Part shown: one piece after another, positions 21-38,844 of the stretch
Layout: each line of letters begins with the position of its first letter
How positions within the stretch are numbered: position 1 is the first letter of the stretch
DNA from: Lentilactobacillus sunkii DSM 19904
GTDB taxonomy: Bacteria > Bacillota > Bacilli > Lactobacillales > Lactobacillaceae
Assembly: GCF_001435575.1 (NCBI RefSeq)
Contig: NZ_AZEA01000021.1
Coordinates: 1-40,071, forward strand
Length of the DNA stretch: 40,071 nt
Direction of reading: 5' to 3'
Notes under the pieces: generated by a model
The model's input: the letters and a program-made list of their open reading frames with translations, nothing else
The model's database searches: none
Told to the model about the DNA's origin: nothing
Translations under genes and position numbers: made by a program

Positions 21-144
21 AGTGTGACGAGGGCTGGTTGACACGGTTTCTAAGGGTACTTTGACTGAAACCCCGGGTTTGGGTTTTAGTTAAAGTGCAC
101 TTAGAAGTTAGTGTCAGGCCCGTCGGAACACGTTTCGGCTATGT
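21..144 (+). repeat. Structured intergenic element, copy A
   Basis: First of five related elements in the window. It opens with AGTGTGACGAG (21-31) and closes with AACACGTTTCGGCTATGT (127-144). Nested stems are visible: TGACAC with GTGTCA, then TCTAAG with CTTAGA, then a 15-bp inner stem with two G-T wobbles around a CGGGTTT loop. A further hairpin (141-180, ATGTTGCCT with AGGTAACAT) overlaps the 3' box, so alternative folds are possible. TGTGAC (23-28) can also pair with GTCACA (190-195). It lies upstream of arcB, probably between arcB and the preceding gene. A TAA at 17-19 or the TGA at 25-27 inside the first box may be that gene's stop. It does not end in a T-tract. Confidence 0.7.
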
Positions 145-266
145 TGCCTAGATAGGGTCAATACCCAACAAAGGTAACATAGAAAAGCTGTCACATACCA
201 TTCAACTCTACAACCCCAGCCCAAGCACCGTTACCCAAATCAATATTCATCAAGGAGAATTCGATT

Positions 267-1298
267 ATGACAAAAGATTTCAGACAAAACGTATTTCAAG
301 GACGTAGTGTTTTAGCCGAAAAAGATTTCACTGCTGCCGAACTCGAATATTTGATCGACTTTGGTTTACATCTTAAGGCTTTGAAAAAAGCTGGTATTCC
401 TCATCGTTACCTCGAAGGCAAAAACATTGCCCTTCTCTTCGAAAAGTCATCAACTCGTACCCGTTCAGCATTTACAACGGCTTCAATCGATCTTGGTGCT
501 CATCCAGAGTACCTTGGCCAAAACGATATTCAATTAGGTAAGAAGGAATCAACTTCAGACACTGCCAAAGTTCTTGGCAGCATGTTCGATGGAATTGAAT
601 TCCGTGGATTCAAGCAGAGCGATGCTGAAATCCTTGCCCGAGACAGTGGTGTTCCTGTATGGAACGGCTTAACCGACGAATGGCACCCAACTCAAATGTT
701 GGCTGACTTCATGACTGTTAAGGAAAACTTTGGCAAGCTCCAAGGATTGACTTTGACATTCATGGGTGACGGCCGTAACAACGTTGCCAACTCATTGCTT
801 GTTACCGGTGCAATTCTGGGTGTTAACATTCACATTGTTTCACCTAAAGAATTGTTCCCAACTGACGAAATCCAAAACATTGCCAAAGGCTTCGCTGAGA
901 AGTCAGGCGCAAAGCTTGTGATTACCGATGACCTTGATGAAGGTATGAAGGGTTCAAACGTTGTTTATACCGATGTATGGGTATCAATGGGTGAAAGCAA
1001 CTGGGAAGAACGCGTTAAGTTGTTAACGCCATATCAAGTAAATATGGAAGCTTTGAAGAAGACCGGCACACCAGACGATCAATTAATCTTCATGCACTGC
1101 CTGCCAGCATTCCACAATACCGAAACCGAATACGGCAAGGATATTGAGAAGAAGTATGGCATTACTGAAATGGAAGTTACTGATGAAGTGTTCACCAGCA
1201 AGTATGCTCGTCAATTTGAGGAAGCAGAAAACAGAATGCATTCAATCAAGGCTATGATGGCTGCTACTCTGGGTAATCTCTTTATCCCTAGAGTGTAA
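267..1298 (+). CDS. arcB: Catabolic ornithine carbamoyltransferase
   Basis: Second enzyme of the arginine deiminase pathway: citrulline plus phosphate gives ornithine and carbamoyl phosphate, in the cytosol. The 343-residue protein has the usual length. It shows the carbamoyl-phosphate loop STRTR (62-66), HPTQ (140-143) and the ornithine-side motif HCLPAFH (277-283). AAGGAG (252-257) precedes the ATG. No convincing promoter is visible just upstream, so it is probably co-transcribed with a gene to the left (arcA is expected but not in the window). It is followed by a terminator-like hairpin and then arcC. The catabolic rather than anabolic role rests on the neighbouring arcC, arcD and arcT. 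The identification is secure. Confidence 0.97.
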
Positions 1299-1356
1299 CG
1301 AAAGCCCAAACCACATTTCAGCCTAGTACCCACCTTGAAAAATAGCTTAACAATAC

Positions 1357-1405
1357 AAGGGACTGGCAACAAAACATTTGTTTTGTCCCAGTCCCTTATT
1401 ATTTT
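1357..1405 (+). terminator. Terminator/attenuator between arcB and arcC
   Basis: Stem GGGACTGG with CCAGTCCC encloses a second stem ACAAAAC/GTTTTGT, and ends in TTATTATTTT. It sits 60 nt after the arcB stop and only ~20 nt before the arcC start. It is probably partly read through, lowering arcC and arcD relative to arcB, or it is an RNA-stabilising hairpin. Confidence 0.7.
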
Positions 1406-1426
1406 CAAAGACGGAGGAGAATTATT

Positions 1427-2389
1427 ATGGGACGTAAAGTCGTAGTAGCCCTAGGTGGTAACGCCATCCTGTCAAAGGATGCATCTGCAGCCGCACAGCA
1501 GCAAGCATTGCGAGATACTGCGGAGCACCTGGTTAAATTTATTGAAAATGGTGACCAGCTGATCATTTCTCATGGAAATGGCCCTCAAGTTGGAAACCTG
1601 TTATTACAGCAGGCATCAGGAAGTACCAGTGATAACCCTGAAATGCCTCTTGATTCTTGTGTGGCCATGACCCAGGGAAGTATTGGTTACTGGATGCAAA
1701 ACGCGATGGATCAGGTAATCAGTGAAAAGGGACTGGATAAGACGGTTGCGACCGTTGTTACCCAGGTTGAAGTGAGTGCCGATGATCCGGCATTTGCCAA
1801 CCCAACTAAGCCAATCGGTCCGTTCATGAGTAAAGAAGACGCTGATTTGGCCAAGAAACAGAATCCGAGTTTCAGCTTTGTTGAAGATGCCGGCCGTGGC
1901 TATCGCCGGGTTGTTCCTTCACCAAAACCGATTGGTGTTGTTGAAACCAAGGCGGTTAATGCGTTGGTTGAAGCCGGAATCGTGCCAATCTCTGTTGGTG
2001 GCGGTGGTGTGCCGGTTGTTACGGAAGGCCACCGACTTTCCGGCAAAGAAGCCGTTATCGATAAAGACTTCGCCAGTGAGAAGTTAGCGGAATTAGTTGG
2101 TGCAGATGCTTTGATTATTCTGACGGCTGTTCCAAATATCTTTGTGAACTTCAACAAGCCTGATCAAAAGAAGCTTGAGAAAGTTTCAGTTGCCGACCTC
2201 CATCAATACATTGGTGAGAAGCAATTTGCACCAGGAAGCATGCTGCCGAAAGTTGAAGCGGCAATTGATTTTGTAGAAGCAACCGGCAACGAAGCTGTGG
2301 TTACAGCTTTGGACAATATTGAGGGATTTATCAATGATGGATCGGGAACGATTATCGTTCCAAATAAGAATCGATCCACCATCGCCTGA
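1427..2389 (+). CDS. arcC: Carbamate kinase
   Basis: Final, energy-yielding step of the arginine deiminase pathway: carbamoyl phosphate plus ADP gives ATP, CO2 and ammonia. At 320 residues it has the family length. Seen motifs are the N-terminal nucleotide loop GGNA (10-13), SHGNGPQVGN (48-57), a glycine-rich GGGGVPV near 190, and an IDKDF segment near 213 typical of the amino-acid-kinase fold. The ribosome binding site GGAGGAG (1413-1419) is strong. It sits between arcB and arcD in the same direction. The upstream hairpin may tune its level. Confidence 0.97.
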   Translation: MGRKVVVALGGNAILSKDASAAAQQQALRDTAEHLVKFIENGDQLIISHGNGPQVGNLLLQQASGSTSDNPEMPLDSCVAMTQGSIGYWMQNAMDQVISEKGLDKTVATVVTQVEVSADDPAFANPTKPIGPFMSKEDADLAKKQNPSFSFVEDAGRGYRRVVPSPKPIGVVETKAVNALVEAGIVPISVGGGGVPVVTEGHRLSGKEAVIDKDFASEKLAELVGADALIILTAVPNIFVNFNKPDQKKLEKVSVADLHQYIGEKQFAPGSMLPKVEAAIDFVEATGNEAVVTALDNIEGFINDGSGTIIVPNKNRSTIA

Positions 2390-2453
2390 TTTATGTTAGA
2401 TTCTGCAATGAATTTATACGTATTAAATATTCTTATTCGAGGGAGTGAGCTAA

Positions 2454-3881
2454 ATGAAAGAGCGCGATGGTAAATTAGGGCTGCTCGAACTGGTCGGTTT
2501 GGTTGTTGGATCAATCGTCGGTGGTGGGGTATTTAACCTCATGCACGATATGGCCGTTGGGGCCGGAGCCGGAGCCATTATCATTGGCTGGGTAATTACA
2601 GCTGTTGGGATGGTCATGTTGGCTTTGACATTCCAGAACTTAACGATGAAGCGTCCGGATCTGGATGCCGGTGTTTACAGTTATGCCGAAGCTGGTTTTG
2701 GTAAATACATGGGCTTTAACTCCGCATGGGGTTACTGGCTGTCCGCATGGCTTGGAAACGTTGGGTATGCGACACTGTTAATGAGTGCCGTTGCCTACTT
2801 CCTGCCGGTCTTCGGTGATGGCCAAAACATTTGGTCAATCATTGCTGCATCGTTTATTTTATGGGCCTGCCATTTTATGATTTTACGAGGGATTGAATCA
2901 GCTTCATTTGTGAATACCATTATTACAATTGCAAAATTGATTCCAATCTTCCTGTTCATTGTTATTGTCTTATTCGCATTCAAGATGAATATGTTCACCA
3001 GTGATTTCTGGTACACACCAAGCGGCAAGTTCGAATTTGGCAGTGTCATGGCACAAGCCAAGAGTACGATGCTGGTAACCGTTTGGGTATTTATCGGAAT
3101 CGAAGGAGCCGTTGTCTTTTCCGGACGGGCACGCAAGCGTTCAGATGTTGGTAAAGCAACTGTTCTTGGAATTATTACCGTTATTTTGATTTATATGTTG
3201 ATCACACTGTTGTCATTTGGTGTTATGAGCCGAGCTGGCCTTTCACACTTGACTCAACCAGCGATGGCTGAATTGCTTCAAAGCTTGGTTGGTAAGTGGG
3301 GCGCCATGGTTGTTAACGGCGGGTTGATTATCTCCGTTGTTGGTGCCTGGTTGTCATGGACCATGTTTGCCGGTCAATTGCCATATGAGGCTGCAAAGGA
3401 AGGATCGTTCCCTAAGATCTTTGCCAAGGAGAACAAAAATGGCGCACCGATTACCTCATTGACTGTAACCAACATCTGTGTTGAAATCTTCATGTTCTCA
3501 TACTTGATTACAGCTTCTGCCTATAACTTCTTCTACTCGATTGCCAGTGCTGCGATTTTAATTCCATATGCATTTTCTGCATTCTATCAATTGAAATACT
3601 CAGTAAACGACGATCACGGTAAGGGGAGAATGGGAAACATTATTGTTGGGGTTATCTCCAGTATTTATGCATGCTGGCTGTTGTTCGCAGCCGGTACCAA
3701 CTTCCTGCTCTTGATGTCATTATTGTTTGCTGCAGGAATTCCGGTATTCTGGATACTTCAGAAGAAGGATAACCACGCCAAGAAAGTCTTTGGACCAATT
3801 GAAATGACTTTGGCAATCTTCATTGTCATTGCCGCCATTTACACGATTTACGGTCTGATTGTAGGCAAAGTGACATTCTAA
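2454..3881 (+). CDS. arcD: Arginine/ornithine antiporter, APC superfamily
   Basis: Membrane antiporter of the basic amino acid/polyamine (APA) branch of the APC superfamily. It imports arginine and exports ornithine, feeding the pathway encoded beside it. At 475 residues it has about 12-13 hydrophobic segments. The first, ELVGLVVGSIVGGGVF, carries the glycine-rich substrate-binding loop of APC carriers. GAGGGAG (2439-2445) lies 8 nt before the ATG. The gap after arcC is 64 nt with no terminator, so the two genes are probably one transcript. A strong terminator follows the gene. Substrate specificity is inferred mainly from context. Confidence 0.93.
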   Translation: MKERDGKLGLLELVGLVVGSIVGGGVFNLMHDMAVGAGAGAIIIGWVITAVGMVMLALTFQNLTMKRPDLDAGVYSYAEAGFGKYMGFNSAWGYWLSAWLGNVGYATLLMSAVAYFLPVFGDGQNIWSIIAASFILWACHFMILRGIESASFVNTIITIAKLIPIFLFIVIVLFAFKMNMFTSDFWYTPSGKFEFGSVMAQAKSTMLVTVWVFIGIEGAVVFSGRARKRSDVGKATVLGIITVILIYMLITLLSFGVMSRAGLSHLTQPAMAELLQSLVGKWGAMVVNGGLIISVVGAWLSWTMFAGQLPYEAAKEGSFPKIFAKENKNGAPITSLTVTNICVEIFMFSYLITASAYNFFYSIASAAILIPYAFSAFYQLKYSVNDDHGKGRMGNIIVGVISSIYACWLLFAAGTNFLLLMSLLFAAGIPVFWILQKKDNHAKKVFGPIEMTLAIFIVIAAIYTIYGLIVGKVTF

Positions 3882-3901
3882 AACTTGATTTCAAATATGA
3901 A

Positions 3902-3947
3902 AATCACCTAAAGCAAAAGTAACAATTTTGCTTTGGGTGATTTTTTT
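3902..3947 (+). terminator. Rho-independent terminator after arcD
   Basis: Stem AATCACC...AAGCAAA pairs with TTTGCTT...GGGTGATT, followed by seven Ts. It closes the arcB-arcC-arcD transcript. Confidence 0.9.
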
Positions 3948-4006
3948 GATCAACCGCAAAACTTGCGTTTATCACTGGTATCACCCACAGAATGGCCGAT
4001 AACCGT

Positions 4007-4012
4007 TATAAT
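4007..4012 (+). promoter_or_regulatory. -10 box upstream of arcT
   Basis: TATAAT lies 56 nt before the arcT start and after the arcD terminator, so arcT probably has its own promoter. No good -35 hexamer is seen at 16-18 nt, which is compatible with activator dependence but does not prove it. Confidence 0.45.
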
Positions 4013-4067
4013 GATTCCATGAAGCTCAACCGGAATTATCTTAGTTTAGCGAAAGGCGGTAAAAGTG

Positions 4068-5186
4068 ATGAAGATTGCAGGATTTGGGGTTGAAGAATGG
4101 CTAAATGTTTGGGAGAAAAAAGCGACGTATGATATTGCACAAAGTACCATTTCTTCTATGACGATGCAGGAAGTTCTTGATTTGGATGGCGAAAGTGGCC
4201 AGACCTTTTATGACTTATTGAATAAACAAAAAATGAATTATGGCTGGATTGAAGGCTCACCTGAGTTTAAAAGCGAGGTTTCAAAACTCTATCAAAATAT
4301 CAGTCCGGACAACATTTTACAAACTAATGGGGCCACTGGTGCTAATCACTTGGCCTTATACTCATTGGTGGAACCGGGAGATCATGTCATCTCCGAGTAT
4401 CCATCCTATCAACAGTTATACGATATTCCCAAGTCACTGGGTGCCGATGTTGATTACTGGCACATTTATGAAGAAGATGGCTGGTATCCGGATATTGAAG
4501 AATTAAAGCAATTAATCCGGCCAGACACGAAACTCATTTGCCTGAATAATGCCAACAATCCAACAGGGACCATTCTTGATCACGACTTCCTGCAACAAGT
4601 TGTGGATTTGGCGAAATCTGTTGGTGCGTATGTATTGGTTGATGAAGTATATTTGCCGCTGGACGACCCATCCAAATTCACTTCGATTGTTGACCTCTAT
4701 GATAAAGGGATTGCGACAAATTCTTTATCCAAAACCTATTCAGTTCCTGGAATCCGGGTTGGCTGGACGGCAACGAACAGTGAATTGGCTGATCTGTTTA
4801 GAAAGTATCGGGATTACACTATGATCTGCTGTGGCGTATTCAACGATATGTTGGCAACTTACGTTCTTCGAAACAGGGACAAAGTTTTGCAAAGAAATCG
4901 AAAATTGGTTCTAAATAATTTGAAAATCTACAGTGACTGGATTGACTCTGAACCCCGTGCCAGCGTAATCATGCCCCAAGCAGTTTCAACATCATTTCCC
5001 AAACTAGACGTTCCTGAAGACATCGAAGAATTTTGCATCCGTCTGTTGAAAGAAGAAGGTGTATTGCTGGTCCCAGGCAATCGATTTGATATGCCCGGAC
5101 ACGTAAGACTCGGATACTGTGCTCAAGAAGATACTTTGAGAAAGGGGCTTAAGAGGCTGTCCAAGTTTATGCGGCAATATGACTAA
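4068..5186 (+). CDS. arcT: PLP-dependent aminotransferase ArcT
   Basis: Fold-type I (class I/II) aminotransferase. A member usually called ArcT accompanies arc genes in lactobacilli and streptococci; its substrate there is not well established. Seen motifs are NNANNPTGT near 159, LVDEVY near 188-193, and SLSKTYSVPGIRVGW with the PLP-binding lysine at about residue 222. The ATG at 4068 is preferred over the GTG at 4065 because AAAGGCGG (4052-4059) then sits 8 nt upstream. With 372 residues it is full length. It is separated from arcD by a terminator and has its own -10 box. arcR follows after ~107 nt. Confidence 0.9.
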   Translation: MKIAGFGVEEWLNVWEKKATYDIAQSTISSMTMQEVLDLDGESGQTFYDLLNKQKMNYGWIEGSPEFKSEVSKLYQNISPDNILQTNGATGANHLALYSLVEPGDHVISEYPSYQQLYDIPKSLGADVDYWHIYEEDGWYPDIEELKQLIRPDTKLICLNNANNPTGTILDHDFLQQVVDLAKSVGAYVLVDEVYLPLDDPSKFTSIVDLYDKGIATNSLSKTYSVPGIRVGWTATNSELADLFRKYRDYTMICCGVFNDMLATYVLRNRDKVLQRNRKLVLNNLKIYSDWIDSEPRASVIMPQAVSTSFPKLDVPEDIEEFCIRLLKEEGVLLVPGNRFDMPGHVRLGYCAQEDTLRKGLKRLSKFMRQYD

Positions 5187-5223
5187 CATCTGCGTTGGTT
5201 CATTCCGTCTCAGATTGGTTTAA

Positions 5224-5249
5224 TGTACAATTGTCTAATTTGAGGTACA
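5224..5249 (+). promoter_or_regulatory. Possible operator in the arcR promoter region
   Basis: TGTAC (5224-5228) and its reverse complement GTACA (5245-5249) lie 21 bp apart, two helical turns, around a possible -35 (TTGTCT, 5231-5236). The spacing suits a dimeric regulator, possibly ArcR itself. The half-sites are short, so this is only a candidate. Confidence 0.3.
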
Positions 5250-5268
5250 CTTTTAATGGAGATTAATT

Positions 5269-5282
5269 TGTAACCGCTTTTG
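5269..5282 (+). promoter_or_regulatory. Degenerate cre-like site before arcR
   Basis: TGTAACCGCTTTTG matches most of the CcpA operator consensus (TGWAANCGNTNNCW) but lacks its final C. It overlaps the ribosome binding site region of arcR. Carbon repression of arc genes is known in lactic acid bacteria; whether this site acts is inference. Confidence 0.3.
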
Positions 5283-5293
5283 GGAGTGTACTA

Positions 5294-5995
5294 ATGATTA
5301 TAAAAAATAAAAGTGACTATGATGACTATGCTAAGCTAATGCGTCGGCATCCGGAATTTAGTCCATTAGATGATAAATATATTCGGCAGCTGCTTGATGA
5401 AATGAAAGTCAAGCAGTATCACCGCGGCCAAATCTTGTTCGATCAAGGAGATACCCGTGATAAATTCTATTTTCTGATAGAAGGGGTCGCCAAATCGTTT
5501 CATTGGGATAAGAACGGTGATGAACAGCTGTATCTATACATTCGCCCAAACAAGGGATTCCCATACATTGGATTATTTGAAGATGATAGATATGCGTATA
5601 CTGTGCAAACCATGACCGATGTGAAGATTGCTGAATTTTCAATGCCGATTTATGAACAGGTATTGCGTGAAAACCCTGAACTGATGGTGAATGCTGTCAA
5701 AGAGATGAGCCAAATTATCAATACTTCTGAAACTCAGCTCCAGCGCATGGTGACAACGAGCGCAAGGTGCCGGGTTGCCAACGCAATCTTATTTATTGGC
5801 CAACAGATTGGTGACCTGCAGGAAGACGATACCATTTTGATTCCGTATCCGATTACGATTGTCGAACTTTCAAAAGTCAGTGGTACGACACGGGAAACCA
5901 CGAGTCAAATGGTTCAAAAACTGGTGTCTGAGAATAAAATTCAGTACAATCGAAAATATTTTAAAATTTTAGAATTGGATGAAGATTCATATTGA
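5294..5995 (+). CDS. arcR: Crp/Fnr-family regulator, probable ArcR
   Basis: A 233-residue transcription factor with an N-terminal cyclic-nucleotide-binding-like beta-barrel (about residues 30-140; RGQILFDQGD and FYFLIEGVAKSF are typical strands). A C-terminal Crp-type helix-turn-helix (about 175-225) contains the recognition-helix segment SGTTRETTSQMVQKL. ArcR proteins of this family activate arc operons in related bacteria, and its place directly after arcT supports that role. GGGAGTG (5282-5288) precedes the ATG. I see no cysteine cluster for an Fnr-type iron-sulfur centre. It is followed by a hairpin shared with the convergent permease gene. Confidence 0.88.
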   Translation: MIIKNKSDYDDYAKLMRRHPEFSPLDDKYIRQLLDEMKVKQYHRGQILFDQGDTRDKFYFLIEGVAKSFHWDKNGDEQLYLYIRPNKGFPYIGLFEDDRYAYTVQTMTDVKIAEFSMPIYEQVLRENPELMVNAVKEMSQIINTSETQLQRMVTTSARCRVANAILFIGQQIGDLQEDDTILIPYPITIVELSKVSGTTRETTSQMVQKLVSENKIQYNRKYFKILELDEDSY

Positions 5996-6013
5996 TATCC
6001 ATTTTTAGAAACG

Positions 6014-6049
6014 AAGAAGGCACGGCTCTGATTGGAGTCGTGCCTTCTT
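6014..6049. terminator. Shared terminator hairpin, arcR / permease
   Basis: Perfect 11-bp stem AAGAAGGCACG with CGTGCCTTCTT between two convergent genes. The T-run is weak on both sides, so termination efficiency is uncertain. Confidence 0.6.
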
Positions 6050-6060
6050 AATACATATTG

Positions 6061-6840: not shown

Positions 6841-6999
6841 GAGCCAAGCTGACCTCTTTTCAATTTTTGATACTTCTAATATACTACATTTTTCAGTAAA
6901 AAAAACGCCCCCATCAACTCCCGTTTCAAAAGACTTGATTTATCCCCTCGCACCCTTGATAATAGTTAATTATTAATGCGAAACGAAAGCAGGTAACCC

Positions 7000-7656
7000 A
7001 TGACACATTTATTCTTTGACTTTGACGGTACCATTGCCGATTCAGAAGAAGGAATCGTTCGATCTCTTAAATACGCAGTGGCTAAAATGAAGCTTCCCGA
7101 GCTGACCCATGACCAGTATCTCAAGTTTATCGGTCCCGCACTGATTAATAGTTTGGAAAAATTCTATCCCCAGTTATCACAGGGCGATCGAATGACAACT
7201 TTAAAATATTATCACGACTATTACAAACGGGAAGGGATGTTCCAGCTTGACTTATATCCCGGCATTGTAAGTGAATTACAGCTTCTCAATGATCAGGGCT
7301 ATGATGTCAATATTGCGTCGGCCAAACCGGAAGATCTCATTCATGACATTACTGACCAATTCCAAATTACTCAGTATTTTAATGGCAGATACGGTGCCAG
7401 CAGCGACGAGGGCACCCGGCATACCAAGACTGCGGTACTGAAGTATGCTCTGGAAGAAGCAAAAGCTGATCATGCCGACAGTATCATGATTGGTGACCGG
7501 GACAACGATATGCTTGGAGGCTACAATAACCACGTCAAGACTCTAGGTGTGACTTACGGATTTGGTGATGTGCCGGAATTGTTGGGTGCTCATGCGAATG
7601 TGTTGGTTGATAAGCCTGATGAGATTCAGGACGGGGTTCGGAAGATAATTGGGTAA
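7000..7656 (+). CDS. HAD hydrolase, phosphoglycolate-phosphatase-like
   Basis: A 218-residue HAD-superfamily phosphatase with a helical cap inserted after motif I (subclass I). Motif I is DFDGT (7-11) with nucleophile Asp7, motif II falls near NIASAKP (about 105), and motif IV is IGDRDND near 165. The layout fits the Gph/PGP group, which dephosphorylates phosphoglycolate or other small phosphates; the true substrate is unknown. The ribosome binding site (AGCAGG, 6988-6993) is weak. Element copy C starts 8 nt after the stop and a terminator follows. Confidence 0.88.
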   Translation: MTHLFFDFDGTIADSEEGIVRSLKYAVAKMKLPELTHDQYLKFIGPALINSLEKFYPQLSQGDRMTTLKYYHDYYKREGMFQLDLYPGIVSELQLLNDQGYDVNIASAKPEDLIHDITDQFQITQYFNGRYGASSDEGTRHTKTAVLKYALEEAKADHADSIMIGDRDNDMLGGYNNHVKTLGVTYGFGDVPELLGAHANVLVDKPDEIQDGVRKIIG

Positions 7657-7664
7657 TGGAAAAA

Positions 7665-7791
7665 GAGTGGGACGAGAGGCAATTTGACCTCTGAATTTAA
7701 GAGAATCAAGCGATTATTCCTGGCCTTGGAAGGATTGCTTGGCTTTCTTAAATTAATAGGGTCAGCCGATTGTTCCACGTTTTAACTTGGT
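7665..7791 (+). repeat. Structured intergenic element, copy C
   Basis: Opens with AGAGTGGGACGAG and ends with TTCCACGTTTTAACTTGGT, the most diverged 3' box of the five. Nested stems are TGACC with GGTCA, then AATTTAAGA with TCTTAAATT (9 bp, perfect), then a long wobble-rich hairpin. It starts 8 nt after the stop of the HAD gene, on the same strand. Confidence 0.65.
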
Positions 7792-7813
7792 ATTAGTGGT
7801 GAATTAACGTAAC

Positions 7814-7855: not shown

Positions 7856-7890
7856 GTTGGTGGTTGATTATTTTTTTGCCTTTTTCTTTT

Positions 7891-8019
7891 ACATAGTGGA
7901 AACGTGCTCGCCAAGCCAGCTTTCTCCGCTTAGTCCAATAACGGACTTCAACGCAAGACCAGCGTTAAAGTCCGTTATTAAACTAATGCTCAAAAGCTAA
8001 ACGGCTTGGCTCGCACTCT
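7891..8019 (-). repeat. Structured intergenic element, copy D
   Basis: Read on the minus strand it begins AGAGTGCGAGCCAAGCC and ends GAGCACGTTTCCACTATGT. Stems, outside in, are GCCAAGCC/GGCTTGGC, AGCTT/AAGCT, TTAGT/ACTAA and an inner hairpin AATAACGGACTT...AACGC pairing with GCGTT...AAGTCCGTTATT. The first box overlaps the stop codon TAG (8020-8018) of the DsrE gene. Compared with copy E the stems carry compensatory changes. Confidence 0.75.
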
Positions 8020-8356
8020 ATGCCTTTACATACGCAAATCCCTGCTCCTGCAGTGACACCAAGTCCGCCACTCCTGCCGACACAATTTCGACGTTTTCCG
8101 GCAGTTGGGTTTCCTTGATTTGGTGGCTGTACATTGAATTGTTGCAGGCGTGAAATCTGACGCCCTCTCTGCTGAACTGTTCCACCGCGTTTCTCAAGCG
8201 TTCGTCCAAATATCCGGTAATTGCATCACCATTTACCAACACGACAATATGATATTCTTCCTTATTTGTACGTCCGTAATCCAACAGATTGGTGACGTTA
8301 CTCAACGTGTGATCCCATTTCTCCGGTTCATCAATGTGAAAAACAACCTTGTGCAT
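8018..8356 (-). CDS. DsrE/DsrF-like family protein
   Basis: A 112-residue cytosolic protein of the DsrE-like fold: beta strand VVFHIDEP, a helix, strand IVVLVNGDAI near 45, and a conserved FHACNNSMY segment with the family's single cysteine near residue 80. DsrE-type proteins carry sulfur or act as small redox adaptors; no function is assigned here. GGAGGAATAACG precedes the ATG, and the start is 2 nt after the stop of the DUF2252 gene, so the two are translationally coupled. The stop codon is embedded in element D. Confidence 0.82.
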   Translation of the reverse strand: MHKVVFHIDEPEKWDHTLSNVTNLLDYGRTNKEEYHIVVLVNGDAITGYLDERLRNAVEQFSREGVRFHACNNSMYSHQIKETQLPENVEIVSAGVADLVSLQEQGFAYVKA

Positions 8357-8358
8357 CG

Positions 8359-11387: not shown

Positions 11388-11516
11388 ATATAGTCGAAAC
11401 GTGTTCTCCAAGCCAGCTTCTTCCGCTTTATCCAATAACGAGGCTCGATGCAAAACACGCATCAAACCTCGTTATTAAATAAATGCTCGGAAGCTAACCG
11501 GCTTGGCTCACACTCT
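11388..11516 (-). repeat. Structured intergenic element, copy E
   Basis: Read on the minus strand it begins AGAGTGTGAGCCAAGCCGG and ends GAACACGTTTCGACTATAT. Stems are CCAAGCC/GGCTTGG, AGCTT/AAGCT, TTTAT/ATAAA and AATAACGAGG...GATGC with GCATC...CCTCGTTATT. It starts 5 nt after the XRE gene stop on the same strand and precedes the methyltransferase gene. It is the closest relative of copy D. Confidence 0.75.
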
Positions 11517-11521
11517 GTTCT

Positions 11522-11929
11522 TTAAATATCCAACTTCCCTTGCTCCGTCCTCGGTCCCTCATCATGCGGGGCATTTGTTCTTCCGTGGACGTAGCCTGAT
11601 ATTAATTGGTAGATTTCATATCGGTCTGCTGAGCTAAGATTTTGACCGTTGAATTGCAGCGTTTTGTCCGAGATGAACAGTCTTGCGATATCGTAGGTAC
11701 TGTTTTCTGTCAGACCCGTCAAGTAATCCATTGTGACGTCAAAGAACTTGGCCAGCCGTTGAATTTCAATATAACTTGGTGTTCGAATCCCACGTTCCCA
11801 GTTTCCGATCTGGGAACCGGTACTCTCGTGCGCTTTGTCTGTTGGAGAGTCTTTGTTGATTGCGTTGGCTAATTGTTCCAAAGTTAGATGTTCGCCTTTT
11901 CTTAATGCTCGTAATCTTTCTGGAAACAT
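11522..11929 (-). CDS. XRE-family transcriptional regulator
   Basis: A 135-residue DNA-binding protein. Residues 1-70 form an XRE/Cro helix-turn-helix (LRALRKGEHLTLEQLANAI, then SQIGNWERGIRTPS as the recognition helix, then LAKFFDVTMDYLTG). The C-terminal half (about 75-135) is polar and unassigned. A GGTGATC Shine-Dalgarno is weak but well placed. It is divergent from the alpha/beta hydrolase gene. Its promoter region contains a CGCC-7-GGCG palindrome that could be its operator. The target genes are unknown. Confidence 0.88.
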   Translation of the reverse strand: MFPERLRALRKGEHLTLEQLANAINKDSPTDKAHESTGSQIGNWERGIRTPSYIEIQRLAKFFDVTMDYLTGLTENSTYDIARLFISDKTLQFNGQNLSSADRYEIYQLISGYVHGRTNAPHDEGPRTEQGKLDI

Positions 11930-31007: not shown

Positions 31008-31037
31008 TTAGATATTAAGGGTAAAGGAAGTGTCATC

Positions 31038-31697: not shown

Positions 31698-31724
31698 ATT
31701 TGATAAATATAGGTAGGTAGCAAT

Positions 31725-32156: not shown

Positions 32157-32189
32157 AGGACCGGGAAGTTTCCCGATCCTTTATTTTTT
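32152..32189. terminator. Bidirectional terminator, GNAT / acyltransferase
   Basis: AATAAAGGA-C-CGGGAA pairs with TTCCCG-A-TCCTTTATT around a 2-nt loop, with T/A tails on both sides. Both flanking stop codons lie inside it. Confidence 0.92.
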
Positions 32190-33278
32190 GTGTCTTGAGC
32201 GGAGCCATTTCCATACATGATGGATGCTAATTGCCGAGGCAAACGACAAAATCCAGGTACCAATATAGACTGTTATAATCCCGATTACCGGATGGCTGCT
32301 TGTCAGATTTCGCCCAAACGATAACCATAGTAATTGATCCCAAAAGACATTTGATAAAAAGGCGGGGTAGGCGTAATTGGCCATGATATGGACAGTTTCA
32401 GTAATTTGCCGTTTATGTCCAAGCTGGTAGACTGCCAACGCTGCAATCAGCATGATTATCACCAGATCATAAATTGCCATTGAAGGTTTGTAGTAGGGAG
32501 CGTTGGCCAATTGGACAGGCAGTCTGTATTGGAAGAGCTCCAGGTTAACCCAAATAAGTGAACCCAAAGCAACCAACAAAATCAGTGGCCACCATTTGCG
32601 GAGAAATTGGCTTGTAAATCGGCGATATTGCCACGCTAGAACGCCAATGACACCATAGATGAGAAAACTAATAAATAACCGGTCCAATAAATACCAATCG
32701 TGCATGTGAGGGCCGTGGAAGACCTGAGCATCATAGAAAGTCAACCACCCAAAATATATCACGACAGTTGTTGATAGAGCGATGAGTCCCCTGGAAGAAC
32801 GGCTTTTGCACCACGCAGCCAGCCACCAAAAGAATGGCATTAAAAAGATGAACTGAAGCATCATCGAATTATACCAAAGGTGAGGGGCAGCATTACCATT
32901 GACAAATTGCCAGGCAAACTGAGCAAGGGTGTGGTAGTGACTCACTTGCTGAACCCAAGGCATGAGTACCAGATAAATGGTTGTCCAGAGAATTGTCGGT
33001 AAGAACAGTGTGTGCCACATCTGCCCCAAGTATGCACGATAGCCTAGATCAGTTTCACCAGTGACACGAATGGTCGTATATAGAATGCCGGTGATAAAAG
33101 CCGGTGCAGTGAATTTGATTAAGTTGTATGTAATCCCGATACCCATTTGAATTGTCGAGCTGGGATGAGTTGTTAAAGCGAGTCCGAGGATAGTCTGCAG
33201 CATGACCGTTGTACAGGCAATTATTTTTAGATAATCACCAATATCCGGGGTGGTAGGTGACTTAGCTTCGTAGTCCAT
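32181..33278 (-). CDS. Acyltransferase 3 family membrane protein
   Basis: A 365-residue integral membrane protein with about ten hydrophobic segments. The N-terminal block (DYLKIIACTTVMLQTILGLA) resembles the first helix of the acyltransferase-3 family (OatA/WecH-like), where the usual conserved His is replaced by other residues (KIIACTTVM). It probably transfers acetyl or other acyl groups to envelope sugars, but the missing His makes activity uncertain. The C-terminus has no extracytoplasmic SGNH domain, unlike OatA. A GGAGT-like site precedes the ATG. It is monocistronic with terminators on both sides. Confidence 0.8.
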   Translation of the reverse strand: MDYEAKSPTTPDIGDYLKIIACTTVMLQTILGLALTTHPSSTIQMGIGITYNLIKFTAPAFITGILYTTIRVTGETDLGYRAYLGQMWHTLFLPTILWTTIYLVLMPWVQQVSHYHTLAQFAWQFVNGNAAPHLWYNSMMLQFIFLMPFFWWLAAWCKSRSSRGLIALSTTVVIYFGWLTFYDAQVFHGPHMHDWYLLDRLFISFLIYGVIGVLAWQYRRFTSQFLRKWWPLILLVALGSLIWVNLELFQYRLPVQLANAPYYKPSMAIYDLVIIMLIAALAVYQLGHKRQITETVHIMANYAYPAFLSNVFWDQLLWLSFGRNLTSSHPVIGIITVYIGTWILSFASAISIHHVWKWLRSRHKK

Positions 33279-33342
33279 TTTTTGGATACTCCTTCAATCA
33301 AATCTTATACTCTAAATATACCAACGAATCACGAGAATGCAA

Positions 33343-33380
33343 AAACAGGCTGGAAACAAATGAATGTTTCCAGCCTGTTT
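33343..33380 (-). terminator. Terminator after the NlpC/P60 gene
   Basis: AAACAGGCTGGAAAC and GTTTCCAGCCTGTTT, a 15-bp perfect stem with an 8-nt loop, followed by TTG and more Ts on the minus strand. Confidence 0.9.
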
Positions 33381-33423
33381 AGGATAGATGATTGAATTGT
33401 TAATTGATATTATGTGTTATAGA

Positions 33424-33915
33424 TTAATCGTCTGTATCGTTGTCAGCATCGAAGTTGGCTACGTGAGCAGATCCAACATAGTTCCACCATGGTGCTTTAA
33501 CAGATTCAGTAATGACTCCGCGGTTTTGAGCATCGATCATCTTACCTTTACCGATGTACATCCCAACGTGAGAAATTGATGATGCGCTCCAACCGAAGAA
33601 TACCAGGTCACCCTTTTGGATGTTACTGTATGATACCTTTTGGCCGGCGTTATATTGTGCTTGGGCGGTACGAGGAAGTGATACGCTCGCAGCCTTCTTG
33701 AAAACATAGCTGGTAAATCCTGAACAATCAAATGCTGATGGGCCAGTGGCACCATAAACATATGGCTTGCCGAGGTTTTGCTTAGCTACTTTGTATACAG
33801 CTGCATATGATGCATCTGTATCGTCAGCTTTTGATGCTTGAGCATCTTGGAAACCGGCGAATGACAATGTGAACAATGCTACTAAAGTTAATAATATTTT
33901 TGTATGTAATTTCAT
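33424..33915 (-). CDS. Secreted NlpC/P60 peptidoglycan endopeptidase
   Basis: A 163-residue cell-wall hydrolase that cuts peptide stems. The signal peptide is 1-27 (cleavage DAQA/SKA). The NlpC/P60 domain spans about 36-150: catalytic Cys64 in FDCSGF, His116 in SHVGMYIG, and a third polar position in IDAQN (128-131), where Gln or Asn takes the usual His role. The protein is a lone catalytic domain without LysM or other wall-binding repeats, with a short acidic tail. AGGGAG precedes the ATG. A leader of almost 200 nt separates it from the MMPL-gene terminator. Confidence 0.9.
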   Translation of the reverse strand: MKLHTKILLTLVALFTLSFAGFQDAQASKADDTDASYAAVYKVAKQNLGKPYVYGATGPSAFDCSGFTSYVFKKAASVSLPRTAQAQYNAGQKVSYSNIQKGDLVFFGWSASSISHVGMYIGKGKMIDAQNRGVITESVKAPWWNYVGSAHVANFDADNDTDD

Positions 33916-34095
33916 TTTTTATCAACAACTCCCTATCAAATCTACAAGTACCAGAATACCAATGAATTGTTGCAGGAGTGTAACAAACTATTTGCAATGC
34001 AGTTAAATGTCATATGACGTTTGCAACAAAAGTCACTCAGCTTGTGAATATCCGCTTACATGCCCATGCAAAGGAGCATTTGTAAGTGAGCAAAC
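33916..34095 (-). promoter_or_regulatory. Long leader upstream of the NlpC/P60 gene
   Basis: About 180 bases. It contains a perfect palindrome GTCATATGAC (34009-34018), two copies of TTTGCAA flanking it (33991 and 34020) and a hairpin CTTACA/TGTAAG (34055-34086). A possible promoter ends in TGATAG about 30 nt before the gene. I do not recognise a known riboswitch. Confidence 0.4.
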
Positions 34096-34131
34096 AAAAA
34101 AGACATTCAAACCGAATTGAATGTCTTTTTT
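34096..34131 (-). terminator. Terminator after the MMPL gene
   Basis: AAAAAAGACATTCAA and TTGAATGTCTTTTTT, a 15-bp perfect stem with a 6-nt loop; T-run on both strands. It lies ~75 nt past the MMPL stop. Confidence 0.9.
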
Positions 34132-34206
34132 GACGATTTTGGGTAATATGTCAGTTGACTTTTATTAGGTGATGACGTAACAGGAATATAAAAATTAATA
34201 AATTAT

Positions 34207-36918
34207 TTATTTGTTCTTTAAAATATTCTTTTTATTTGGCAAAGTAACTGCTAGTTTACCCATCGAAGTGACGATCATTGGCAGAATCAGGTAGTAAACA
34301 CAAACTGTGTAGATGACAATTAATGCCGTTTCAACCATTGCAAACGATGCACCGAACGTTAATCCAATGGCTAACGCGATGACGACTAACAGAATGTAAC
34401 GAACGATCTTACCATAACTTGCCATCGTTGGTCGAATCCATTCCAGAAGTGACAATTCCGTGTACCTGAACGACAATCCCAGGGCAATGATCTGCCAAGC
34501 AGCGACGGCGGTTAAGATGCTGACCGCCAGTATTGGAACCTGCCAGTCAAATTGATTGGTGCCGGTTGCGTAATGCATTGTCAAATACGTTAATTGGAAA
34601 CCGGTGACTGCAGACATGACAAATGCAATCGTCCAGTACAGCGGCTGAAGAATTGATCGGCTGACAATGAACACCGTTACCAAGATTCCAATGATGACAA
34701 TTGCCAGTAAGGTGATGAAATGATGATTCATCTTGGATTGATTCATTGATTGCGTAACTGGTTCACCGGTAAAGGCAATTTGATCAGAAGAAAGTGGTGT
34801 CCCTCTTAATTGAAGGTGAACCTGTTGTTCCAACGTTTTGACCTGTTTTATATTGGTCTTGCTGGATGGGGCATTCTTCATCACAACTTGAATCGTTGTA
34901 ATCTTTTTATCCTGACTGGTGTAGTTCAACATGGTTTGGAGAAAATCGGTATCCGCCAATTGTGCTTTGGTAATGTAATAAACGTTGGCGGCACCAGACT
35001 TTTGGAGGCCATTCAAATAATCGTAAATGTTATTCAACTGATCGGTTGAGGAGTTAACCTGGCTGCCGACCTGCTTCAATTGCTTTTGAACCTGGCTGAT
35101 TTGCTGGCTGTAACTCTGAAGGTTATTGGCACTGTTTTGACCATAATTTTGAATGACTGATCCTTCAGCGTTTAACTGACTGATACCGGCTGAAACAGCC
35201 TGCAAAGATTGATTCAATTCGTTAATCCGCTTCTGATATGCCCGAACTCTTGCAGAAGCCCCTTGTTGAACGGTAACACTGGAGTTGGCGGCAACGCTGT
35301 TAACCTGTGATGCGAGACTGGAACTGTCTTGCACGATCTTGTTGCTTTGCTTAACCAGTTCCTGCATTTCTTTAACCTGTTGTTTCAGGCCGGATAAGTT
35401 CAGATTGCTGCCGCTGCTGTCTATTCCATTGGAGGCTTGGGACAGCTGGCCGGTTGCCTGCTTGGCATTCAATCCGATTGATTCCAACTGATTGGAAACG
35501 TAATACTTCTCAATTGGCATACCGCTTGGCTGAGTTAATGAATAAGCCGCGCTGACACCCTTGGTATGCTGCAGCTTAGTTGTCAGTTGATCCAAATGCT
35601 GGAGGTATTTTTCGTTATCCAGTGGTTGATCGTTTTTCAAGTAAATGGTAATTGGGGTTGCTTTTCCTTGTGAGAAATGAGCTTGAAGGACGTGGGCCCC
35701 TTTAACAGCTTGGTTGGTTTTGGCCAAATTGGTCATTGGTGAATAATTTAAACTTGTGTGATAGAAATAAATAAATGGCAGAGTTAAGTACAAAACGACC
35801 AAAAATGCGGCGATTGGCTGCCAGAGCGAGAAATCGGTGGCCCGGTTCCAGAAGTGTGATTTCATAGCAGTCAACGGGGCGTTGGATGGCCAGAAGAGGC
35901 TTTCGCCAAGAGCAGCCATGAAGACGGCGTTTAATGTCAACACGGCCAGCATCAAGACGACATAAGTGATGCCAAGTACCCATAATGACTGGAGTTGATC
36001 ATAGTTGATGAAGCCACAGCAGGCAAAAATGACTGCCAAGGCGCTGCCAACAATGATGATTGGGAACCGCAGGGCAGAAATGGTTTGCTGAGTAGCATAG
36101 CGGGCTTCCCGCTGCATTGATAGGACACTGCGTAGCTTACGATAAATGTAAATATTCCAAATCGTTCCCAGAACCACGGTCGCAATCCCGATTTCAAGCG
36201 GTGCATATTGGGTAAAAGCAAAGTTAAAGTGTTTTGCCAAGGCAACCGAACCGCTGAAAGAAGTCACAAAGGCTGCAAATAAAGTAATGAATGAAATGAT
36301 TGGTGCAAAGATCGATCGGAAGTAAATCCCGACAATCAGCATCGAAACCACAAATAGGGTAATCAAAATGATATTTGTAACTTGAGCGGTCTTTTCGTTA
36401 TTGACGTCGCGGACAATTTCTGGACTGGTAATATAGGATTTCAGTCCGGAAACTTTGACCTCATTGACCAATTCATTGGTTAATACCCGTAAAGTATTAT
36501 TTTGGGCATCAATATCCAGACTGGCAATTTGAGTTGATCCGTCTTTAGACAGAAGTTGCTGCTTGCCGGCAACGTTGGTGTTAAGCGTCACAATCTTTTT
36601 GATACTGTAAAATGATTGATGCTGTTTGAGTTTATTTAAGGCCGTGTCAATCTTAGTCTGCTGCTTAGGGGTAATCTTGCCCTTTGGATTGGTGTACACA
36701 ACGTTGATGGTTGAGGCTTTTCCAAGGTTATATCCCCAATCTTTGCGCATACTTTGCGCTTTGGCAGGCTGAGAATTTTGGCTGAATGTCGGCTGACTGT
36801 ATGACTGCAGCGTGTCAGTCACGTTGGGAGCGGTTATAATTGCAATAAATGCAATAATCAGCCATACTAACAGCGTGAATAAGCGATTTTTGTGTAATTT
36901 TGCGATAGTTTCCTTCAT
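34207..36918 (-). CDS. MMPL/RND-superfamily transporter
   Basis: A 903-residue membrane transporter with the twofold RND layout. One membrane segment (11-30) leads into an extracellular domain, then helices about 180-370. A second large extracellular loop (about 395-720) is rich in Gln/Ser and coiled-coil-like between about 490 and 640. A second helix group ends the protein at about 890. Actinobacterial and firmicute MMPL proteins export lipids or peptides; the cargo here is unknown. AGGGGA precedes the ATG. It is divergent from the Ntn hydrolase gene. No TetR gene is adjacent. Confidence 0.88.
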   Translation of the reverse strand: MKETIAKLHKNRLFTLLVWLIIAFIAIITAPNVTDTLQSYSQPTFSQNSQPAKAQSMRKDWGYNLGKASTINVVYTNPKGKITPKQQTKIDTALNKLKQHQSFYSIKKIVTLNTNVAGKQQLLSKDGSTQIASLDIDAQNNTLRVLTNELVNEVKVSGLKSYITSPEIVRDVNNEKTAQVTNIILITLFVVSMLIVGIYFRSIFAPIISFITLFAAFVTSFSGSVALAKHFNFAFTQYAPLEIGIATVVLGTIWNIYIYRKLRSVLSMQREARYATQQTISALRFPIIIVGSALAVIFACCGFINYDQLQSLWVLGITYVVLMLAVLTLNAVFMAALGESLFWPSNAPLTAMKSHFWNRATDFSLWQPIAAFLVVLYLTLPFIYFYHTSLNYSPMTNLAKTNQAVKGAHVLQAHFSQGKATPITIYLKNDQPLDNEKYLQHLDQLTTKLQHTKGVSAAYSLTQPSGMPIEKYYVSNQLESIGLNAKQATGQLSQASNGIDSSGSNLNLSGLKQQVKEMQELVKQSNKIVQDSSSLASQVNSVAANSSVTVQQGASARVRAYQKRINELNQSLQAVSAGISQLNAEGSVIQNYGQNSANNLQSYSQQISQVQKQLKQVGSQVNSSTDQLNNIYDYLNGLQKSGAANVYYITKAQLADTDFLQTMLNYTSQDKKITTIQVVMKNAPSSKTNIKQVKTLEQQVHLQLRGTPLSSDQIAFTGEPVTQSMNQSKMNHHFITLLAIVIIGILVTVFIVSRSILQPLYWTIAFVMSAVTGFQLTYLTMHYATGTNQFDWQVPILAVSILTAVAAWQIIALGLSFRYTELSLLEWIRPTMASYGKIVRYILLVVIALAIGLTFGASFAMVETALIVIYTVCVYYLILPMIVTSMGKLAVTLPNKKNILKNK

Positions 36919-37074
36919 TAATTCGTCCCCTAAATATGTATGTATGAAAAAGGCTCATATATTAAGAGTTTACCATTTTATAAGGCGCAGTGCGATACGT
37001 TTTGGGCGTTTTAGTGTATATTGGAAGAATTGTTGTAAAATTTATTCGACTCATTCTGATGGGAGGTTCTTAAA

Positions 37075-38055
37075 TTGTGTACAAGTATCTTTCAAATTGG
37101 CCAAGAAGATGGTGCCCACGTTCTGTCGCGGACGATGGACTGGCCACAGCTGGGAGCGCATCCCGTTTTCGTTCCACGTAACTTTGCCTGGCATTCAGTC
37201 TATGACGATAAAAAGTATGTCACCAAATACGCAACGCTGGGTTCGGGCCATCAGCACGCCAAACGAATTGATATGTCCGATGGCGTTAACGAGTTTGGTC
37301 TGGCTGTTCAAAAACTGACATTCACAAATGGCAGTGAGTTGGTAGAAGAACCGGGTGAAGATAAAATCCACCTGGCACCATTTGAATTGTCATTCTTTTT
37401 GTTGTCCAACTATAAATCAGTTGCCGATATTGAAGATCATATTGAAGAAATTGAATTGATGGCTGATAAACACAGCTTAATGAAATACGGGCACAGTGAG
37501 CTGCATTTTGCTGCTGCTGATCCAACCGGCAGAATTGTTGTCATCGAACCGGTAACGACGCCAATTGAAATTATTGAAAATCCGCTAGGGGTTCTCACCA
37601 ACAGTAATCATTTCGACAGACAAATTGATAAGCTGAACAAATATTTGGACTTCACGCCAGACTTTATCAACGGGACTGTCCCATTAAACACACCGCGGGT
37701 AACAACCGGAAATGTGTCGGGAAAGTCCATTCCACCTGGTTCGTATTCACCAGGATCCAGATTTGTACGAGCTTCATATTTAAAAGAACGAATCGATATC
37801 CCCCAAAATGAAAATGAAGCATTTGATAATTGCTGGCATATTTTGGACTCGGTTAACGTACCTAAGAGTAGTGAGCATCAACCAACGTATTCGGTTTATC
37901 GGGCAGCGGTGTGCTGTGAAAGTCGGAACTACTATTATCAGCCTTACCATGCCAAGTCTGTCGCTAAAATTCAGTTAACCGATGAGTTGATTCACTCTAA
38001 TGAAGTAAAATTTTTCAAAGTTGATGATAAAATCACCTTCAATGAGTTAAACTAA
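37075..38055 (+). CDS. Choloylglycine hydrolase / penicillin V acylase family Ntn hydrolase
   Basis: A 326-residue linear-amide C-N hydrolase. The start codon is TTG, followed at once by TGT, so Met removal exposes Cys2, the N-terminal nucleophile. GGGAGG (37061-37066) sits 8 nt upstream. Other family residues are Arg19 and Asp22 in SRTMDW, DGVNEFGLAVQ (about 66) and VLTNSNHFD (about 175). It cuts bile-salt amides, penicillin V or acyl-homoserine lactones; which of these cannot be told. There is no signal peptide, so it is cytosolic. It is divergent from the MMPL gene; GH73 follows after 32 nt in the same direction. Confidence 0.9.
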   Translation: MCTSIFQIGQEDGAHVLSRTMDWPQLGAHPVFVPRNFAWHSVYDDKKYVTKYATLGSGHQHAKRIDMSDGVNEFGLAVQKLTFTNGSELVEEPGEDKIHLAPFELSFFLLSNYKSVADIEDHIEEIELMADKHSLMKYGHSELHFAAADPTGRIVVIEPVTTPIEIIENPLGVLTNSNHFDRQIDKLNKYLDFTPDFINGTVPLNTPRVTTGNVSGKSIPPGSYSPGSRFVRASYLKERIDIPQNENEAFDNCWHILDSVNVPKSSEHQPTYSVYRAAVCCESRNYYYQPYHAKSVAKIQLTDELIHSNEVKFFKVDDKITFNELN

Positions 38056-38087
38056 TATATTGGAGATATTTCTGGGGAGAGTTCAAG

Positions 38088-38708
38088 TTGCGAAAACAAA
38101 GTTGGCGGGTTATCTTATTATTACTAATAACTTCTGTGGTTTTAGTGGCCGGGGTTACAATGCGCAGTCAGTTAAGTCACCGGCAGCCAGCTCAATCAGC
38201 GCCGACGTTGGTTCAAAAAAAGCCGAATCACTTTTCGGAACGCCAGAAGAAGACCTTTATCAGTCAAGTTGGTCGTCCGGCTGTGAAACTTTATTTGAAG
38301 AACCGCCAAGTCTTGCCGAGCGTTGTTATCGCTCAAGCAATTCTGGAATCGCAATTCGGAACTTCCGAGTTATCAACTTCGGCCAACAATTTGTTTGGTA
38401 TCAAGGGCAGTTATCGCGGCCAGTCTGTTCAGTTCTACACCGGAGAAGTTGAAAATGGAAAATCGATCAAAGTTTTGGCTCAGTTCAGAAAGTATCCGAA
38501 CCTGGCCGCATCGATCGCTGATCACAATCAACTGGTGAGCTCCAAGTTCATTAAGTCGAAGAACATATTGAGCTATCGCAAGTCAACGCGCCTGCTGCAG
38601 GAAAACGGCTATGCAACAGATCCCCACTATGCATCCAAGTTGAATCATATTATTGTTAAATATGATTTGAGTCGGTATGATCTGAGGGCGCTGAATGAGA
38701 GAGTGTAG
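38088..38708 (+). CDS. Membrane-anchored GH73 N-acetylglucosaminidase
   Basis: A 206-residue wall hydrolase. A hydrophobic helix (about 7-24) anchors it or is cleaved. Residues 60-200 form the GH73 domain: catalytic Glu87 in AQAILESQFGTS, ANNLFGIKG near 103, and ENGYATDPHYASKL near 180. These are usual in Auto/FlgJ-like muramidases. It lacks wall-binding repeats. The TTG start has GGGGAGAG (38074-38081) upstream. It is probably co-transcribed with the Ntn hydrolase. Element copy B begins 3 nt after its stop codon. Confidence 0.9.
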   Translation: MRKQSWRVILLLLITSVVLVAGVTMRSQLSHRQPAQSAPTLVQKKPNHFSERQKKTFISQVGRPAVKLYLKNRQVLPSVVIAQAILESQFGTSELSTSANNLFGIKGSYRGQSVQFYTGEVENGKSIKVLAQFRKYPNLAASIADHNQLVSSKFIKSKNILSYRKSTRLLQENGYATDPHYASKLNHIIVKYDLSRYDLRALNERV

Positions 38709-38711
38709 GGC

Positions 38712-38844
38712 AGAGTGTGACGAGACCCGGGTTGACCCCGGAGTGTAAGACCGAAATTGTAATGATAAACGATCTTTGTTTATCGTTACAATTTTGGCCT
38801 TACACAGTAGGGGTCAGGGTCGTCGAAACACGTTTAGTCTATGT
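38712..38844 (+). repeat. Structured intergenic element, copy B
   Basis: Opens AGAGTGTGACGAG, closes GAAACACGTTTAGTCTATGT. Stems outside in are GACCC/GGGTC, TGACCCC/GGGGTCA, TGTAAG/CTTACA and a long AAATTGTAA...GATAAAC with GTTTATC...TTACAATTT around GATCTTT. It starts 3 nt past the GH73 stop on the same strand, and ends ~100 nt before terC. No T-tract follows. Confidence 0.78.

Follow-up and report, generated by a model that had tools for sequence, protein, structure and literature searches.

Hairpin repeats behind genes of Lentilactobacillus sunkii and other Lactobacillaceae: a fold kept on one strand and a possible role at mRNA 3′ ends

The 40,071-nt contig NZ_AZEA01000021.1 of Lentilactobacillus sunkii DSM 19904 (assembly GCF_001435575.1), referred to below as the window, carries five copies (A to E) of a hairpin element among genes for ornithine carbamoyltransferase (OTC), a HAD hydrolase, a DsrE-like protein, a helix-turn-helix (HTH) protein and a glucosaminidase. 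Each copy forms a single long hairpin interrupted by small internal loops, with energies from -56 to -75 kcal/mol and z values from -6.1 to -10.1; for each copy, none of 200 dinucleotide shuffles was as stable. A first-pass annotation of this DNA had placed the five copies with borders that agree within 2 nt with the coordinates given by our covariance model, R1, and the paired changes it listed were seen in the folds. Its remark that the copies differ almost completely between their terminal boxes overstated the divergence of D and E (79% identity); the remaining pairs are 56–67% identical. The 5′ box of A reads ACAGTGTGA and not AGAGTGTGA, as had been given, and that of C is AGAGTGGGA.

The family was taken at first to consist of five copies, whereas at least 117 sites were found in the genome of strain DSM 19904. 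With up to three mismatches allowed, the 2.69-Mb genome contained the 3′ box 33 times and the reversed pattern 3 times. The model R1 was built from 25 aligned copies of this genome, including all five of the window: 24 full copies from 30 loci with the 3′ box, plus window copy C. Loci L021, L022, L023, L026, L028 and L029, which were composite, overlapping or without an element, were left out of the seeds. A search of the source genome with R1 returned 139 rows at E ≤ 0.1; since 22 of them were the opposite strand of a listed site, 117 sites remained. This count is a lower bound, with 150 of 721 candidates scored. In the window together with 20 further stretches (410 kb), picked for holding elements, 100 matches were reduced to 76 elements after removal of 24 opposite-strand hits. 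Among these 76, elements with at least 36 bits (73) were used for distances to stop codons, those with at least 45 bits (67) for mismatch counts and nearest-copy identity, and those with at least 60 bits (57) for the direction of substitutions.

The stems of the element covary. Among 25 copies of the source genome, two-sided changes were found in 36 of 42 pairs, and the covariation score was 0.635 against 0.218 after shuffling, with none of 500 shuffles as high. In 35 copies belonging to the family's other genera, where the tested structure came from the folds of those very sequences (35 of 43), the score was 0.797 against 0.212 (0 of 500 as high), and 39 of 44 pairs showed two-sided changes, a number reached by 3 of 500 shuffles. 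In both sets, covariation was far above that of the shuffled and slid controls.

The fold is also biased toward one strand. This was assessed with G-U pairs forbidden in folding, so that both strands were treated alike, by counting isolated mismatches between Watson–Crick neighbours. Since G·T and A·C are complementary to each other, equal numbers of the two are expected if only double-stranded DNA mattered. On the sense strand of 67 own-genome copies, we counted 100 G·T, 9 A·C and 34 other mismatches; in 25 own copies chosen by their box without a structure model, the numbers were 35, 5 and 16. The corresponding counts were 36, 3 and 32 in 32 copies of the same genus, 35, 9 and 34 in 43 copies from other genera of the family, and 23, 4 and 14 in 21 copies from Enterococcaceae, the relatives' elements coming, here and in the measurements of stop position, from loci picked as best matches. 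Compared with near copies, G·T mismatches had arisen from A>G in 50 cases and from C>T in 41, and A·C mismatches from G>A in 12 and from T>C in 4. Because G·T arose by both routes, a one-directional mutation bias is no explanation, and the bias is more than copying or palindrome repair alone would give. The mismatch counts thus support well that the fold is kept on one strand, which behind a gene is the mRNA strand. The simplest reading of a one-strand fold would be RNA; the alternative is folded single-stranded DNA. The first-pass suggestion of a structure kept by selection is borne out by covariation, in the genome and in other genera, together with this bias, and its wording of an element class defined by its fold suits a large family that shares the fold and covaries in both sets.

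The elements tend to begin at stop codons. Among 58 first-of-array elements of the source genome, 36 start between -5 and +9 nt from a stop on the same strand (reading frames of at least 80 codons); 12 start at -2, where the stop is made of a T and the element's own AG. In relatives, the start was within -10 to +9 nt in 15 of 19 and in 39 of 63 cases. On the mirror-image 3′ side, the same interval held 1 of 58 own elements and, in relatives, 0 of 19 and 1 of 60. Among 21 own exceptions, some stood by eye behind short frames below the cut-off, several were antisense to the 5′ end of a neighbouring gene, two followed thiamine pyrophosphate (TPP) riboswitch aptamers (one an Rfam call, one judged by eye), and one followed a T-box-like leader (by eye). 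At locus L142 (2245–2369 and 2357–2446, minus strand), an element starts where a TPP riboswitch aptamer ends, with a terminator-like hairpin behind it; an element in this position may alter the working of the switch. On a plasmid (L167, 3984–4100, NZ_CP031202.1), an element provides both the final residues and the stop codon of an ABC transporter gene known from beer-spoilage plasmids, as read in that record alone; like matches to this transporter-end element were obtained in 16 further plasmid records. The transporter is presumably the hop-resistance protein HorA (horA), a name that is absent from the records.

Many genes that end in an element have no canonical terminator. Between the element and the next gene, such a terminator was present for 10 of 34 genes with an element at the stop, against 96 of 151 genes without one (p 0.0004); in relatives, the numbers were 2 of 14 and 51 of 86 (p 0.003). 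Depletion in the source genome was observed in both layouts, convergent (6 of 17 versus 30 of 44) and co-directional (4 of 17 versus 66 of 107), and cruder counts agreed in direction (23 of 60 versus 82 of 126; 11 of 35 versus 98 of 151). Several causes may underlie the lack of terminators. The RNA-binding domain of Rho had no match in any of the 24 Lentilactobacillus genomes and, across the family, was matched in 38 of the 201 genomes sampled. Compensation for the loss of Rho was rejected as an explanation: by eye, elements are present in 31 of 38 Rho-positive and in 79 of 163 Rho-negative genomes of the family.

The repeating unit extends from AGAGTGnGA to GAACACGTTT over about 115–124 nt; a conserved tail, about CGGCTAKGTAACAGTAAAACC, comes after it. 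Within the unit, AGAGTGnGA at the 5′ end, GAACACGTTT at the hairpin foot, an inner UUAA/UUA pair and a bulge in the 5′ arm starting with CGG are conserved. Past the foot, GTTT was nearly invariant both in the own-genome set and in the relatives' set (50 elements, nominally from other genera, of which 5 belong to the same genus and 2 to another family). In some copies, the ends of the element are able to pair as ACATAG/CTATGT. The 45 nt downstream of elements are rich in A (0.42) and poor in T (0.18), compared with 0.31 and 0.33 past genes without elements. In arrays, CACGTTT is joined directly to the AGAGTG of the next unit at 9 of 21 junctions from three pooled sets; the other junctions hold a few extra bases, mostly resembling the start of the tail. 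Several copies contain a nested hairpin module of about 31–35 nt, whose own loop is variable and whose sequence is CCAAGTAGGCTAGGC..GCCGTCG or a variant. A sarcin-ricin-like internal loop was considered and dropped, as from the sequence it was not constant between subfamilies.

Comparison of gene ends with those of five relatives (otakiensis, kefiri, parakefiri and the genomes G006 and G009) pointed to turnover. One and the same orthologous gene end may be empty, carry a full element of another subfamily or two in tandem, or retain a deleted remnant. The end of the OTC gene holds a full element in kefiri and otakiensis and an internally deleted one in G009, and is empty in parakefiri and G006; in the window, AGAGTGTAACGAAAGCCC at this gene end is probably the remnant of a sixth element, as judged from the orthologous ends, R1 giving no match there. 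At the empty OTC site, no stem-loop was seen by eye at the insertion point, and the terminator is still present. The gene end corresponding to that of copy C is without an element in kefiri, parakefiri and G009 and holds another type in G006. Element A has no readable gene end in its 5′ flank. Positions 1–18 of the window and the ends of contigs C21, C27, C49 and C5 share a flank located just 5′ of an element and extending, as far as visible, up to GACATTGGTCACTTCATAAC before AGTGTGACGAG. It seems to be a multi-copy sequence standing at five contig ends, perhaps an insertion sequence that targets the 5′ end of the element.

Table 1. Coordinates of the elements in the window and of related features at other loci. 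R1, score with the covariance model; z, stability of the fold relative to shuffled sequences.
Feature	Position	Strand	Length (nt)	Setting	R1 (bits)	z
Element A	19..144	+	126	Ahead of the ornithine carbamoyltransferase gene (267-1298)	121.2	-8.6
Probable sixth-element remnant, AGAGTGTAACGAAAGCCC	1290..1307	+		Very end of the ornithine carbamoyltransferase gene; orthologous gene ends compared		
Element C	7664..7791	+	128	7 nt past the stop of the HAD-hydrolase gene (7000-7656)	89.4	-6.1
Element D	7891..8019	-	129	Opening AG completes the TAG stop of the DsrE-like gene (8018-8356)	110	-9.95
Element E	11388..11516	-	129	5 nt past the TAA stop of the HTH gene (11522-11929)	111.5	-10.1
Element B	38712..38844	+	133	3 nt past the TAG stop of the glucosaminidase gene (38088-38708)	103.7	-8.8
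Nested-module sites	L144 9881-10396; L145 7551-8431; L139 11405-11800; L149 6672-6942			In the element's internal loop or near the 3′ foot		
Distant hairpin-type array, GGGAGATCCTGAG..GGATCTGG..CCGTCCTC	L138 2547-2942			Behind a gene stop		

Candidate agents of spread were sought in the genomes. The Y1 transposase domain (Y1_Tnp, PF01797) had no match in the source genome; within the genus, it was found in 7 of 24 genomes, namely in 6 of the 16 with at least 30 elements and in G023, which has no elements. Spread by RAYT/IS200 transposases was rejected because of this lack of a match and a distribution that does not track the elements. Spread by a reverse transcriptase was likewise rejected: RVT_1 had no match in the source genome and occurred in 8 of 24 genomes of the genus, including 5 of the 16 with at least 30 elements. 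We failed to find carriage by phages: 14 exact 15-mer hits were obtained in viral contigs, none of which was an element by eye, and element E gave no match in phages. An enterococcal copy matched 62 records labelled as phages, and 15 among the matches listed are unannotated records of 2–38 kb. Such unannotated Listeria or Enterococcus "phage" records with enterococcal-type elements include OR846xxx-OR849xxx and PQ520xxx, and we suspect that they represent bacterial host DNA. Plasmid searches with element D and with another Enterococcaceae copy (L217) gave no match.

The covariance-model search for further copies that the first-pass annotation had proposed yielded R1 matches in 31 of 60 relatives and in 110 of 201 sampled Lactobacillaceae genomes, belonging to 24 of 40 genera. 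Divergent copies were present in 18 of 58 genomes of a second family, presumably Enterococcaceae, since 55 of the 66 plasmid records matched by one of its copies are from Enterococcus. The divergent copies, found through R1, have the same hairpin plan, the bulge and a similar 3′ box. One f2 genome gave a single weak hit. In a class-wide sample with 8 candidates scored per genome, at least 5 of 398 genomes matched at E ≤ 1e-5: the source genome, two of the second family and two single hits in another (f17), one of which had the same plan by eye.

No family had been recognised in the first-pass annotation, and Rfam indeed gave no match at the gathering threshold; at E ≤ 1, the only hit was CsrC over element C, with 16.5 bits against a threshold of 61 bits (E 0.66). 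In the open-access literature, we recognised no description of these repeats in lactobacilli, and the only paper containing any of six box strings was unrelated. Given a likely relationship to the enterococcal repeats Efa-1/EFAR, the element is nevertheless probably not devoid of known relatives. Along with this relationship, the coupling to stop codons, the arrays and the family-wide spread had been missed.

EFAR repeats are reportedly about 170 bp long, have a two-hairpin layout and insert into stem-loop targets, most of the target being lost. For these palindromic repeats of Enterococcus, PMC3733652 cites De Gregorio et al. 2009, FEMS Microbiol Lett 292:7. Two R1 copies were found in 90 kb of an E. 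faecalis record; a 125-nt hairpin is followed there by a second one, about 170 nt together. Efa-1 is presented in a passage of PMC2267715 as an intergenic, multi-copy, strongly folding sequence of 163 nt with an adjacent pair of stem-loops, so that, by description, the E. faecalis copies carry two hairpins as Efa-1 does. In contrast, the window copies (126–133 nt) consist of a single hairpin. With the second hairpin missing, and with published EFAR compared by description, they are likely relatives of Efa-1/EFAR and not members.

Other known repeats are more distant. ERIC, a 127-bp repeat of enterobacteria whose Yersinia copies regulate neighbours via RNA hairpins (according to the same part of PMC2267715), resembles our element, by description, in being a single long stem-loop of about 125 nt, but it belongs to another phylum. 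REP/BIME sequences are characterised in a section of PMC3733652 as palindromes of 20–40 bp with GTAG/CGTC tags, mostly downstream of coding regions, plausibly transcribed and clustered, the GTAG type being tied to RAYT transposases. Our elements are likewise palindromic and clustered, often downstream of coding regions and plausibly transcribed; however, they measure about 124–133 nt, end in AGAGTG and CTAKRT, and come from a genome without a Y1 match. In Streptococcus pneumoniae, the small intergenic repeats BOX, RUP and SPRITE form clusters and are inserted within each other, and SPRITE resembles a terminator (PMC10969869); compared by description, their lengths and modules differ from those of our elements (PMC2267715).

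We consider it moderately probable that the elements are EFAR-related, once-mobile repeats of Lactobacillaceae that act as hairpin RNA at mRNA 3′ ends. This interpretation draws on features read from the sequences themselves, namely the fold, covariation, one-strand bias, position, arrays, species turnover and terminator depletion. The elements would have spread earlier as small mobile units, presumably by transposition, and copies would have come to sit in sense orientation at gene 3′ ends, where their first bases often supply or complete the stop. If transcribed, the hairpin would be the first mRNA feature past the coding region, and as RNA it could define or protect the mRNA 3′ region and change the fate of the message. 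It might do so by blocking 3′-to-5′ decay or by offering a site to RNase III, often at genes that lack a canonical terminator. We regard as doubtful a bolder version, in which the element is a family-wide RNA device docking at stop codons: a mobile unit whose spread needs the folded sense strand (RNA or single-stranded DNA), which supplies its own stops, joins units precisely and now governs the formation of mRNA 3′ ends for many genes in lactobacilli and enterococci.

Several observations weigh against a role of the element in mRNA. By the measure used, 22 of the 58 own elements lie away from a stop, and only 8 of 21 Enterococcaceae elements start within -10 to +9 nt of one (frames of at least 60 codons). 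Eleven own copies judged not to be in sense orientation behind a gene are biased in the same way, 18:2 (the set compared with them, 58 elements, is itself not all at gene ends), so selection may favour the spread of the element itself and not work through each host mRNA. The terminator finder was a simple purpose-written script; depletion in relatives was confined to co-directional pairs (0 of 11 versus 17 of 43; convergent 2 of 3 versus 34 of 43); and a terminator is kept at element C and at the OTC site. As for past mobility, the identity to the nearest copy at another locus had a median of 0.80 and a maximum of 0.944 among 67 copies, so that, with no very similar copies across loci, there is no sign of current mobility. 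We could not define a clean target duplication either, and the best empty site, that of the OTC gene in parakefiri and G006, shows none.

The elements could instead be nothing but selfish DNA: a miniature transposable element that needs its one-strand hairpin as single-stranded DNA for a transposase or recombinase and whose presence at gene ends is merely tolerated. This explanation, possible although unlikely in our view, accounts for dispersal, tandem arrangement and turnover between species and for the strand bias in copies not behind a gene; G·T pairs are generally tolerated in single-stranded DNA too, and EFAR is itself classed among miniature inverted-repeat transposable elements (MITEs) in a section of PMC3733652. 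It fits less well with the Y1 domain counts given above, including the presence of the domain in the element-free G023, and with the lack of recent copies, and such tight sense-oriented docking at stop codons exceeds what tolerance predicts. It is very improbable that palindrome repair, with template switching copying one arm onto the other, produced the covariation without any selection on structure: long near-perfect palindromes are prone to such switching, but it is strand-blind, whereas G·T exceeds A·C by 11:1 through both A>G and C>T, and the unpaired bases of the bulge and the tail are conserved as well.

The terminator depletion, the near-invariant GTTT after the foot and the very stable folds would also agree with host-useful terminators, in which the hairpin and a short conserved UUU end transcription and normal terminators are missing for this reason. 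An intrinsic terminator requires a U-tract behind its hairpin, while the foot of the element is followed by GUUUCGG, only three U standing before CGGCU. A normal terminator is retained downstream of some elements, as noted for C and the OTC site, and the depletion, co-directional only in relatives, may stem from operon-internal positions or from genes that never had a terminator; we find this explanation improbable. A site-specific recombination module akin to the attC of integrons would share the location behind stops, one-strand activity, arrays, conserved ends around a variable interior, a conserved bulge and the exact junction in 9 of 21 joined pairs. It is nevertheless hardly credible: attC boxes have the form RYYYAAC/GTTRRRY, the element consensus by eye ends in AGAGTGnGA and GTTTCGGCTA instead, and the gene ends compared lie in ordinary syntenic regions, not in cassette arrays.

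New here are the one-strand fold, the docking at stop codons, the exact array junctions and the terminator depletion. The comparison suggests that the enterococcal repeats and these elements form one superfamily of Lactobacillales. The one-strand wobble signature provides a simple way of asking whether ERIC, REP and BOX are kept as RNA. By extrapolation, many genes of food and gut lactobacilli may end in an unannotated hairpin, and if the element sets mRNA 3′ ends or half-lives, this would be a widespread layer of regulation that is absent from Rfam.

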